The position numbers were made by a program, and so were the translations under genes. This document shows positions 7,063 through 13,534 of a stretch of 64,000 nucleotides of DNA, one piece after another. The stretch's first letter is position 1. Every line of letters begins with the position of its first letter. The notes beneath the pieces are model-generated. The model saw only the letters and a list, made by a program, of their open reading frames with translations. It had not been told where the DNA came from and made no database searches. The DNA is from Kitasatospora albolonga. Lineage in GTDB: Bacteria; Actinomycetota; Actinomycetes; Streptomycetales; Streptomycetaceae. The stretch lies in assembly GCA_002082585.1 (NCBI GenBank), contig CP020563.1, positions 4,334,001-4,398,000 on the forward strand. The letters run 5' to 3'.

Positions 7063-8808
7063 ATGTCCCGTGTATCCACTGCAGGCGTAGCCACCAGCAC
7101 GACGACCGCCCACCTCCTCCTCAAGCGGCTCAAGGAGCACGGCATCGACACGGTGTTCGGTGTCGTGGGCCGTGAGGCCGCGTCGATCCTCTTCGACGAG
7201 GAGGAGGGCATCGACTTCGTCCTGACCCGCCACGAGTTCACGGCCGGTGTCGCCGCCGACGTCCTCGCCCGCATATCCGGCAGACCAGCCGCGTGCTGGG
7301 CCACCCTCGGCCCCGGTATGACGAACCTGGCGACCGGCATGGCCACCAGCGTCCTGGACCGCTCCCCGGTCATCGCGATGGCGGCCCAGTCCGAGTCGCA
7401 CGACATCTTCCCGAACGACACCCACCAGTGCCTCGACCTGGTGAAGATCGCGGAGCCGGTCTCGAAGTACGCGGTCGAGCTGGAGCGCCCGAAGGAGATC
7501 GTCGACCTCGTCGACTCGGCCATCGCCAACGCCATGAGCGAGCCGGTCGGCCCGTCCTTCATCTCGCTGCCCGTGGACCTCCTCGGCTCCGCCGAAGGCA
7601 TCGACCCCGACGCCTCCTACGCTCCCGCCCGCACCCCGAAACGTCCGGTCGGCGCCACCCAGCCCGGCTGGGAGGAGTACGCGGACGAGGCCGCCGCCCT
7701 GGTCCGGGAGGCGAGCAACCCGGTCTTCGTGGTCGGTGCCGCCGCCATCCGCGCCGGTGCCGTCGAGCCGATCCGCCTCCTCGCGGAGCGCCTCAACATC
7801 CCCGTCATCACCACGTACATCGCCAAGGGCGTCCTGCCGCAGGACCACGAGCTCAACTACGGTGCCGTCACCGGCTACATGGACGGCATCCTGGGCTTCC
7901 CCGCCCTGGAGACCCTCTTCGGCAGCGCCGATGTCATCCTCACCCTCGGCTACGACTACGCCGAGGACCTGCGTCCCTCGATGTGGAACCGCGGCATCGA
8001 GAAGAAGACGGTCCGCGTCTCGCCGACCTTCAACCCGGTGCCCCGCATCTACGCGCCGACGGTCGACGTCGTCACCGACGTCCGCGCCTTCGTCGACCAC
8101 CTCGACGCGGCCACCCAGGAGGTCCCGGCCAAGGACCGGCACGACATCACCCCGCTGCGCGAGCGGATCAAGGAGTTCCTCGCGGACCCGGAGTCGTACG
8201 AGGACGGCATGCGCGTCCACCAGGTGATGGACTCCATGAACACCGTCATGGAGGAGGCCGCCGGTTCCGGCCGGGGCACGATCGTCTCCGACATCGGCTT
8301 CTTCCGGCACTACGGAGTCCTCTTCGCCCGGGCCGACCAGCCCTTCGGCTTCCTCACCTCCGCCGGGTGCTCCAGCTTCGGCTACGGCATCCCGGCCGCG
8401 ATCGGCGCCCAGCTCGCCCGCCCGGAGGAGCCGACCTTCCTGATCGCGGGTGACGGGGGCTTCCACTCCAACTCCTCGGACCTGGAGACCATCGCCCGGC
8501 TGAACCTGCCGATCGTCACGGTCGTCGTCAACAACGACACCAACGGCCTGATCGAGCTGTACCAGAACATCGGGCACTCCCGGTCCCACGACCCGGCCAT
8601 CAAGTTCGGCCAGGGCAACTCCGGCAAGGGCGCCGTGGACTTCGTCCTGCTGGCCCAGGCCAACGGGGTCGAGGCGGAGCGCGTCAGCACCCGGGAGGGC
8701 CTCCTCGCCGCGCTGCGCAAGGGCGCCTCGCTCGGCCGCCCGTACCTCATCGAGGTGCCGATCAGCTACGACTTCAGCTCCGCCGGTTTCGGGGCGCTGA
8801 AGGTCTGA
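7063..8808 (+). CDS. ceaS: N2-(2-carboxyethyl)arginine synthase
   Basis: A thiamine-diphosphate enzyme that condenses L-arginine with glyceraldehyde 3-phosphate to give N2-(2-carboxyethyl)arginine, the first committed step to clavams. The 581-residue length and sequence fit CeaS closely. The N-terminal PYR domain has the activating glutamate in [14 protein letters not shown] (about E58). Cofactor and domain signatures include [34 protein letters not shown] and, in the PP domain, [13 protein letters not shown] with the metal-binding NNDTNGL. The start ATG 7063 lies 12 bases after AGGAG. It is the first gene of the rightward operon and its stop is one base from the bls start. Presence of CeaS is highly specific for clavam pathways. 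Confidence 0.96.
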
Positions 8809-8809
8809 T

Positions 8810-11607: not shown

Positions 11608-12557
11608 ACGGTCAGATCAACTCGTCGTTCTCCCCTCGCTACGCCCAGATCCCGACGTTCATGCGCCTGGCCCACGACCCGCACCCGAAGGGGTACGACG
11701 TGGTGGTCATCGGGGCCCCGTACGACGGCGGGACCAGCTACCGGCCGGGGGCGCGGTTCGGTCCGCAGGCGATCCGCTGCGAGTCGGGGCTCATCCACGG
11801 CGTGGGCATCGACCGGGGTCCGGGCGTCTTCGACCTGATCAGGTGCGCGGACGCCGGGGACATCGACCTGACCCCGTTCAACCAGCAGGTGGCCATGGCC
11901 ACCGCGCAGGGACGGCTGGCGGGCATCCTCGCCGACAACGCCGCCTTCCTCATGCTGGGCGGGGACCACTCGCTCACCCTCGCGGGGCTCCGGGCCGTCG
12001 CGGCGCAGCACGGCCCGGTCGCCGTGCTGCACCTGGACGCGCACTCGGACACCAACCCGGCGATGATCGGCGGGGAGTACCACCACGGCACCCCCTTCCG
12101 GCACGCGATCGACGAGGGGATCGTCGCGGCGGACCACATGGTCCAGCTCGGCATCCGGGGCCACAACCCCCGGCCGGACTCGCTGGACTACCCCCGATCG
12201 CACGGCGTCCGCATCGTGACGTCCGACGACTTCGCCGACCTCGGGGTGACCGCCACGGCCGCCCTGATCCGGCGGACGATCGGTGACCACCCGGTCTATG
12301 TGTCGGTGGACATCGACGTCTTCGACCCGGCGTTCGCCCCCGGCACCGGGACACCCGCCCCCGGCGGGCCCACGTCCCGCGAGATCCTCGCGCTCCTGCG
12401 CAGCGTGGGCGACCTCAACCTGGTCGCCATGGACGTGATGGAGGTGTCACCGCTCTACGACCACGGGGGAATCACCTCGGTCCTGGCGACCGAGGTGGGT
12501 GCGGAACTGCTCTACCAGTACGCCCGACTGCACGTGAAGGACAAGGAGAACAACTGA
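11604..12557 (+). CDS. pah: Proclavaminate amidinohydrolase
   Basis: A ureohydrolase (arginase/agmatinase family) that removes urea from guanidinoproclavaminic acid to give proclavaminic acid. The 317-residue protein carries all Mn2+ ligand motifs: [16 protein letters not shown] and [14 protein letters not shown]. The N-terminal [19 protein letters not shown] is the usual family opening. Alone it would be called agmatinase; its place between bls and cas fixes the assignment. It starts at GTG 11604, which overlaps the stop of the ATP-grasp gene (GTGA), and its stop overlaps the cas start (TGATG). Confidence 0.94.
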
Positions 12558-13534
12558 TGGCGATCATCGACGCCACGGCGCACGCCGACCGGCTCCGTGC
12601 TCTCGTCCAGCGGCTGCCGGAGGTACCCCGCCGCGACCTGTACACGTACCTGGAGACGGCCGGAGAACTGGCGGCCGAGCTCCCCGAGGAGATAGCGGCG
12701 GCGCTCGACGGGTTCAACGGCGCGGGCAACGAGGACGGCTACCTCATCTTCCGCGGCCTGCCCGCCGAGCCCGACTTCGACCTGCCGGCCACCCCGACCA
12801 GCACCCCTGCCCCGGTCGACCGGAGACGGCTGGCCATGGAGGGCCTGCTCGCGGTCTTCGGCCGTCGGCTCGGTCTGCACACCGGGTACGCGGAGCTCCG
12901 CAACGGCACCGTCTACCACGACGTCTACCCGTCGCCCGGCGCCCACCACCTCTCCTCGGAGACCAGCGAGACGCTCCTGGAGTTCCACACGGAGATGGCC
13001 TACCACGTCCTCCAGCCGAACTACGTGATGCTCGCGTGCTCCCGCCAGGACCACGAGGGCAAGGCGCAGACGCTGGTGGGTTCCGTCCGCAAGGCGCTGA
13101 AGCTCCTGGACGCGGAGACGATCGCGCACCTCCACGAGCGCCCGATGCCCTGCTCGGTGGACGTGGCCTTCCGCGGCGGCGTGGAGGACCCGGGCGACAT
13201 CGCCCGCGTCAGCCCGCTGTACGGCCCGGCGGACGACCCGCTGCTCGGGTACGACCGGGAGCTGCTGCATCCGCAGGAGCCGGCCGACCAGGAGGCGGTG
13301 GCCAAGCTGTCGAAGGCCCTGGACGATGTGACCGAGGCGGTCACGCTGACCCCGGGCGATCTGCTGATCATCGACAACTTCCGTACGACGCACGCGCGTA
13401 CGCCGTTCACGCCGAGGTGGGACGGGCACGACCGCTGGCTGCACCGCGTGTACATCCGTACCGACTCCTACGGCCAGCTCCCCACGGGCGCCGAGCGCGC
13501 CGGGGACGTCATCACCTTCACCCCGCGCGGGTGA
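12557..13534 (+). CDS. cas: Clavaminate synthase (Fe(II)/2-oxoglutarate oxygenase)
   Basis: A 325-residue TauD/clavaminate-synthase-type oxygenase. The iron triad is visible as H144 and E146 in EFHTEMAYH and H279 in [10 protein letters not shown], with the 2-oxoglutarate-binding arginine at about 293 (GHDRWLHR). These positions coincide with those known for CAS1 of S. clavuligerus. The enzyme carries out three oxidations: hydroxylation of deoxyguanidinoproclavaminate, then, after PAH action, cyclisation and desaturation to clavaminic acid. It is the last gene of the operon and is followed at once by a strong hairpin. The residue match makes function likely, though closely related clavaminate-synthase-like proteins with other roles exist. 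Confidence 0.94.

Follow-up and report, generated by a model that had tools for sequence, protein, structure and literature searches.

The 64,000-nucleotide stretch of Kitasatospora albolonga DNA analyzed here (the window; positions 4334001-4398000 of an 8.03 Mb single-contig genome) contains a clavam-type operon in which ceaS, bls, an ATP-grasp ligase gene, pah and cas follow one another, in that order, on the forward strand (Table 1). The closest named relatives of the ligase come from Streptomyces. Neighbouring genes are separated by a single base (ceaS-bls) or overlap by four bases (bls-ligase and ligase-pah) or one base (pah-cas), and the five genes are translationally coupled. This tight succession, spanning 7063-13534, had been claimed in a preliminary description of the sequence and is borne out; the operon is real, and chance is excluded as an explanation. 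The earliest start codon in the ceaS frame is a GTG at 7018, but we place the start at the ATG at 7063, which is preceded by an aggaga motif and gives the N-terminus MSRVSTA, as in structure 1upa.

The four early enzymes look functional. Their closest solved chains are those of CeaS (1upa), beta-lactam synthetase (BLS; 1jgt), proclavaminate amidinohydrolase (PAH; 1gq6) and clavaminate synthase CAS1 (1drt, E 7e-156), all with E values of 7e-156 or better. The CAS is the only one in the genome above the NCBIfam family cut-off, and three weaker relatives score 102-206 bits. When residues were mapped onto the Streptomyces clavuligerus enzymes, the three BLS residues in Table 1 corresponded to Y348/E382/K443, and those of CAS and CeaS were likewise kept, as were the GGDH, DAHSD and DIDxD stretches of PAH; we take all of these to have catalytic or metal-binding roles. 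The earlier reading that BLS retains its Tyr/Glu/Lys set and CAS its HxE...H ligands therefore agrees with our mapping, and its prediction that clavaminate should be made is well supported by the conserved early enzymes, with clavaminate as the expected intermediate.

A second operon runs divergently on the reverse strand and comprises orf16-like, oppA2-like and orf14-like genes followed by a major facilitator superfamily (MFS) exporter gene, with an overlap at every junction provided that oppA2 starts at 5832 and not at 5805. None of the window genes has an interrupted reading frame, and little or no space separates the genes within either operon. The Orf14-like protein carries the RxxGxG acetyl-CoA loop in the form RRRGHG, and the MFS protein is 53% identical to one adjoining the orf14-like gene of a related genome (G306). 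The ceaS operon and the orf16-like operon have a 139-base region in common, in which CTCTCCG occurs four times (6938, 6949, 6960 and 6971) and CGGAGAG twice (6986 and 6997), with 11 bp spacing within each set; no other exact pair of these heptamers at this spacing is present within the window. Streptomyces antibiotic regulatory proteins (SARPs) bind heptamer repeats at 11 bp spacing. Looser forms of the heptamers can be seen by eye, uncounted, upstream of ceaS in several relatives. The likely SARP partner of the array is encoded beyond the window edge, at L112:10903-11652 in the DNA directly upstream (L112).

Table 1. Features of the clavam locus, with coordinates in the window unless prefixed.
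Feature	Position	Strand	Basis
ceaS, carboxyethylarginine synthase	7063..8808	+	1upa, E 1.8e-302; E58 kept
bls, beta-lactam synthetase	8810..10333	+	1jgt, E 1e-194; Y345/E379/K440 kept
GcaS-family ATP-grasp L-amino-acid-ligase-type enzyme, clade II	10330..11607	+	PF13535 and PF18603 (LAL_C2); tree; AlphaFold2 model; folds 3vot and BacD
pah, proclavaminate amidinohydrolase	11604..12557	+	1gq6, E 4e-161; metal-site stretches kept
cas, clavaminate synthase	12557..13534	+	NF043003, 547 bits (cut-off 450); H144/E146/H279 kept
Divergent promoter region, candidate SARP-type operator	6938..7003	.	heptamer array
Orf16-like Fem-type transferase	5832..6923	-	
OppA2-like peptide-binding protein	4204..5832 (start 5832 or 5805)	-	PF00496; 60% to S. 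jumonjinensis OppA2
Orf14-like tandem GNAT	3119..4207	-	PF00583; 39% to S. jumonjinensis Orf14 over 163 aa
MFS exporter, last gene of divergent operon	1854..3122	-	PF07690, E 2.5e-24; start overlaps orf14-like stop
NocE-like protein, C-terminal part	1..1567 (extends outside window; 1312 aa, L112:13630-17568)	-	GDSL lipase PF13472, residues 1008-1259
BlaB1-like MBL-fold metallohydrolase	13590..14579 (gene call from 14456)	-	PF12706

By its domains and predicted fold, the in-operon ligase is an L-amino-acid-ligase (LAL)-type ATP-grasp enzyme (AlphaFold2 model with mean pLDDT 91.3; best Foldseek matches 3vot and BacD), and sequence comparison assigns it to the GcaS family. S. clavuligerus protein P0075 is 49% identical to it, among the best 120 of 183 matches. 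We take P0075 to be GcaS because its S. jumonjinensis relative adjoins orf16-oppA2-orf14 in the clavulanic acid (CA) cluster, the place given for gcas, which has been proposed as a core gene of that cluster (PMC6856088). The reason for novelty offered in the preliminary description, the absence of an inserted ligase from the known cluster, is therefore wrong, since a GcaS-family member sits elsewhere in the cluster of CA producers. A tree of 55 rows places 20 of them in the GcaS clade (clade I; support 100/99) and 30 in clade II, which holds the window ligase (93/79); 17 clade II rows, mostly from Streptomyces, form a window-type group (100/100). One row, jgi18, belongs to clade II in this tree and lies across the midpoint in a second ligase tree. 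The window ligase falls outside the GcaS clade in both trees and is 47-51% identical to its members. We rejected a housekeeping or otherwise unrelated ATP-grasp origin, the outcome that the preliminary description had proposed to look for: none of the remaining matches from these genomes exceeds 37% identity, and the three placed in the tree fall outside.

The two clades differ in an active-site loop. A comparison of 19 clade I rows with 14 of clade II gave 36 alignment columns that tell the clades apart with at most one exception in each, and 14 of the 36 positions lie between residues 285 and 322, a stretch that takes in the loop following the ExN motif (hypergeometric p 2e-7, for a region chosen post hoc). 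This loop reads RTPSSCMTML in the GcaS clade and RLPAHMISTM in the window ligase. At position 303, twelve further rows have Gly (10), Asp (1) or His (1). We do not equate H303 with the BacD residue of the Trp332Ala entry (3wo1), as this requires an alignment extended by three residues and an assumed numbering, and do not infer glycine specificity from the ligase sequence.

The position of the ligase is shared with other clusters. Our scan for CAS returned 40 loci. Both ceaS and bls are present in the DNA examined for 35 of them; L038-L042, for which this is not so, were dropped. A ligase gene separates bls from pah in 8 of these 35 clavam loci, and we rejected the idea that the insertion is unique to the window. 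In-operon ligases of clade II occur in the window, L003, L011, L029, L036, L032, G344, G306 and G578, and those of clade I in Kibdelosporangium (L028), Actinocrispum (L033) and Phycicoccus (L030), which branch before the Streptomyces rows; the Kibdelosporangium and Phycicoccus clusters also have cpe, cyp and cad. On the simplest reading, the bls-ligase-pah order would be ancestral and CA producers would have moved gcaS out. The ligase-inside operon together with Orf16- and OppA2-like genes is found in eight further genomes, seven from Streptomycetaceae and the eighth a Micromonosporaceae metagenome-assembled genome (MAG), and an Orf14-like gene in six of these eight related clusters (L003, L011, L029, L036, G306 and L032, not G344 or G578).

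GcaS-family ligases (47-78% identity) are present in 19 of the 34 genomes with these loci, in which the remaining matches do not exceed 37%; the 15 genomes with no ligase above that level may have 5S clavam (alanylclavam or valclavam) clusters. Across broader samples, which overlap each other, matches at E<=1e-90 were obtained in 16/392 genus and 10/394 family genomes (own genome included), and a match at E<=1e-80 in 1/394 genomes of the class, namely our own. Four of the 16 genus genomes (own, G344, G306 and G077) have a ligase at least 59% identical to that of the window, and the others 47-50%. The G077 ligase (L102:9039-10364) is a diverged clade II member on a long branch (59%). About 39 kb read around it (L102 and L116) showed no further clavam gene, and it is possibly the remnant of a lost cluster. 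We recognised no description of the arrangement in a literature search, although two sources may already depict it: PMC9146315 mentions four incomplete CA clusters, and PMC12482188 has many CA-cluster variants in its supplementary figures.

The genes that finish CA were not detected. S. jumonjinensis cpe, cyp and cad were not seen in the window or L112, and claR, fd and orf13, for which only the locus was searched, have no match there at E<=1e-6. The cpe (orf12) query found no match at E<=1e-10 across the K. albolonga genome, while the positive controls were found (S. jumonjinensis, the query's own genome; HD; and S. papulosa). Over two sets of 12 and 14 genomes, cpe was present in none of the 10 clade II genomes (G000, G001, G009, G026, G033, G029, G344, G306, G578 and G077, of which G029 is a MAG and possibly incomplete) and in 15 of the 16 clade I genomes, four of which (G091, G693, G631 and G242) were assigned by identity (48-49%) and not by tree; the exception was Actinocrispum (G030). 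The difference is significant (Fisher p 2e-6), with independence overstated since the genomes are related. The cyp and cad searches covered 12 genomes, with G344, G306, G578 and G077 outside this set. Five of the 12 have a cyp match of at least 55% (range 55-100%) and five a cad match of at least 56% (range 56-100%). Our genome gives 12 matches to the cyp query at E<=1e-40, the best-scoring at 38% and others listed reaching 39%, and two to the cad query at E<=1e-30, the best-scoring at 41%.

The early and middle gene sets appear to have different histories. With S. jumonjinensis queries, identities in the window and Kibdelosporangium, respectively, are 79 and 69% for ceaS, 64 and 53% for bls, 76 and 67% for pah, and 74 and 64% for cas, and the order is reversed for gcaS (47 and 80%), orf16 (42 and 72%), oppA2 (60 and 80%) and orf14 (39 and 66%, that of the window over 163 aa). 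Actinocrispum follows the same pattern in gcaS (76%) and oppA2 (75%); its orf16 reaches 43%, and the DNA read there showed no orf14. Neither oppA1 (50% in Kibdelosporangium, 81% in Actinocrispum) nor oat2 fits either pattern cleanly. In an early-gene tree (quick method, midpoint root), seven window-type rows are nested inside Streptomyces CA-type clusters. A single clade of the nine clade II rows was rejected for the early enzymes (p-AU, approximately unbiased test, 8e-45), as was a single ligase clade of all Streptomyces (p-AU 4.6e-6), both groupings having been named after the trees were inspected and with long branches flagged. From these rejections and the identity patterns, the early set and the ligase/Orf16/OppA2/Orf14 set have probably been exchanged relative to one another. 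The term "distinct clavam system" from the preliminary description thus stands on the missing finishing genes and the diverged ligase, Orf16, OppA2 and Orf14, and not on the inserted ligase that was offered as its reason.

The Orf16-like protein is modelled with the double-GNAT fold of Fem proteins, and its nearest ranks are the aminoacyl-tRNA-dependent transferases FemX and Sbb17. Rows 1-16 of the best 50 in the fold search are all Fem, Sba/Sbb, MprF or lysyl-phosphatidylglycerol (lysyl-PG) synthase entries, presumably all aminoacyl-tRNA users, and identity to the listed Fem and Sba/Sbb rows is 10-15%. An Orf16 profile matched no Fem protein among PDB sequences at E up to 1 and returned two unrelated matches. 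K346 is invariant in 8/8 Orf16-like rows and may or may not correspond to the catalytic lysine of FemX, Lys305 (PMC12945691).

A RimK-like ligase is added to the clusters of six relatives. The copy in our genome lies 2.5 Mb from the cluster, in an unlinked pair of MFS and RimK-like ATP-grasp genes (G000:C1:1843224-1845487; L118:13225-15488) that is 80% identical to the pair within clade II clusters of other Streptomyces. We rejected the notion that this cassette is exclusive to clade II, since 2 of the 16 clade I genomes carry the pair away from clavam genes. Those two pairs (L129:8544-12910 and L130:5290-9606) adjoin another FemAB-like gene, 46-47% identical to that of the window. The MFS/RimK pair suggests a travelling ligase module.

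Several flanking genes also have counterparts beside CA-type clusters. The NocE-like protein, named after a description in PMC6856088, has a homologue (50% identity) within the S. papulosa CA-like cluster. The segment just upstream of the window, L112, contains a penicillin-binding protein (PBP) with a MecA_N domain, oppA1 (L112:9087-10724, 57% to S. jumonjinensis), the SARP regulator, oat2 (L112:11769-12977, 70%) and the NocE-like gene. The metallo-beta-lactamase (MBL)-fold protein, for which the name BlaB1 comes from PMC9146315, is 69-76% identical to those adjoining the CA clusters of S. jumonjinensis, S. albiflavescens and M41. Near the cluster, 14747-15211 and 16883-17347 on the reverse strand encode two 154-residue proteins with signal-like N-termini that are 83% identical to each other.

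We consider it probable, by a modest margin, that this is a CA-like cluster of a second type, a variant producing a 5S N-aminoacyl or peptidyl clavam and not CA. Gene content, conserved residues, clade membership and the absence of late genes at the sensitivity of our searches are direct observations, from which we infer the reactions, the amino acid, the use of tRNA, the regulation and the product as follows. CeaS, BLS, CAS and PAH would supply (3S,5S)-clavaminic acid. The clade II ligase would activate an amino acid, not necessarily glycine, as an acyl phosphate and join it to the clavaminate amine, a step proposed because of the GcaS precedent. The Orf16-like enzyme would next add or transfer an aminoacyl group, with aminoacyl-tRNA as the probable donor. 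Where a cluster encodes the Orf14-like tandem GNAT, this protein would cap the amine. The OppA2-like protein may bind a peptide-like intermediate, with the MFS protein as product exporter, and the SARP regulator could drive both divergent operons via the heptamer array. If Cpe, Cyp, ferredoxin and clavulanate dehydrogenase are lacking, neither ring inversion nor aldehyde reduction would occur, and the product would therefore stay a 5S N-aminoacyl or short peptidyl clavam. S. clavuligerus orf15 and orf16 mutants accumulate N-glycyl- and N-acetylglycyl-clavaminate (PMC6478378), as does an oppA2 mutant (PMC7830376), which fits Orf16 acting after GcaS. More tentatively, and as an idea that is rather unlikely to hold in full, these clusters of Streptomycetaceae and a Micromonosporaceae MAG could represent a second class of clavam pathway. 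In it, several enzymes that form peptide bonds without the ribosome would make peptidyl clavams: an in-operon LAL-type ligase with a new specificity, Orf16 as a Fem-type synthase dependent on aminoacyl-tRNA and, for many members, a ligase resembling RimK. Orf16 of the CA pathway would likewise depend on tRNA and act on N-glycyl-clavaminate.

The ligase could instead simply be GcaS, in which case the pathway would end at N-glycyl- or N-acetylglycyl-clavaminate, known compounds that ordinarily are intermediates of CA, and yield nothing new. It shares family and operon position with the true GcaS of Kibdelosporangium, Orf14, Orf16 and OppA2 companions are present, and 131 columns share their residue across both clades when one deviating row is allowed in each. 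We nevertheless think this unlikely, given that clade II is separate in the trees, that its loop is different and that the companion proteins have diverged too. Decay of the cluster, with the pathway ending at clavaminate or at monocyclic precursors as in S. pratensis cultures and the other genes being leftovers, would agree with the predicted monocyclic precursors, and no CA, obtained from S. pratensis-type strains (PMC12482188) and with the solitary ligase of G077 in the 39 kb read. The intact frames and tight packing of both operons make it distinctly improbable, and the recurrence of the arrangement in eight other genomes suggests selection. That CA is made after all, by unlinked or unrelated enzymes performing inversion and reduction, would draw on the cyp- and cad-query matches in our genome, but we give it very little credence as these score no better than in other genomes without late genes and clade II genomes have no cpe match.

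The cluster bears on the conversion of clavaminate to CA, the section of this industrial drug pathway that is still open: more evidence on them is needed (PMC7830376), and the inversion enzymes are marked with a question mark (PMC6478378). Clusters that keep the ligase, OppA2 and Orf16, and mostly Orf14, but have no cpe and, where searched, no cyp or cad, split the two halves of the pathway. With the halves separated in nature, the function of the first should be readable from its own end product. Such clusters may produce unknown beta-lactams and, since beta-lactamase inhibition is reportedly not a property of 5S clavams (PMC12482188), the activity of the product would differ from that of CA. 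Were the wider proposal true, the unexplained Orf16 step of industrial CA formation would gain an aminoacyl-tRNA-dependent role on N-glycyl-clavaminate.

The locus can be compared with several known systems. It resembles the CA cluster of S. clavuligerus and S. jumonjinensis, as read from the latter, in having ceaS, bls, pah, cas, a GcaS-family ligase, Orf16, OppA2 and Orf14, with oat2 and oppA1 upstream of the window; it differs in the missing cpe, cyp, fd, cad, claR and orf13 matches, in the ligase inside the operon, and in a middle set that is just 39-60% identical. The early genes and the NocE-like, SARP, PBP and MBL genes are shared with the S. pratensis-type CA-like cluster of S. papulosa (L113/L114/L131), which was assigned to this type by the gene order in PMC9146315 and which, unlike the window, has gcaS-orf16-oppA2-orf14 away from bls and carries orf13-cpe-fd-cyp-cad. 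GcaS (ORF17), the N-glycyl-clavaminate synthetase, has the family and, in some clusters, the position of the window ligase, which belongs to a separate clade with another active-site loop. Fem-type synthases (FemX, Sba18/Sbb17 and Orf11 of BD-12) have the two-GNAT fold of the Orf16-like model, at the low identity given above. In bacilysin biosynthesis, BacD and BacE place an LAL-type ligase and an MFS exporter in one cluster, as in the window; the warhead there is anticapsin, whereas here it would be a clavam.

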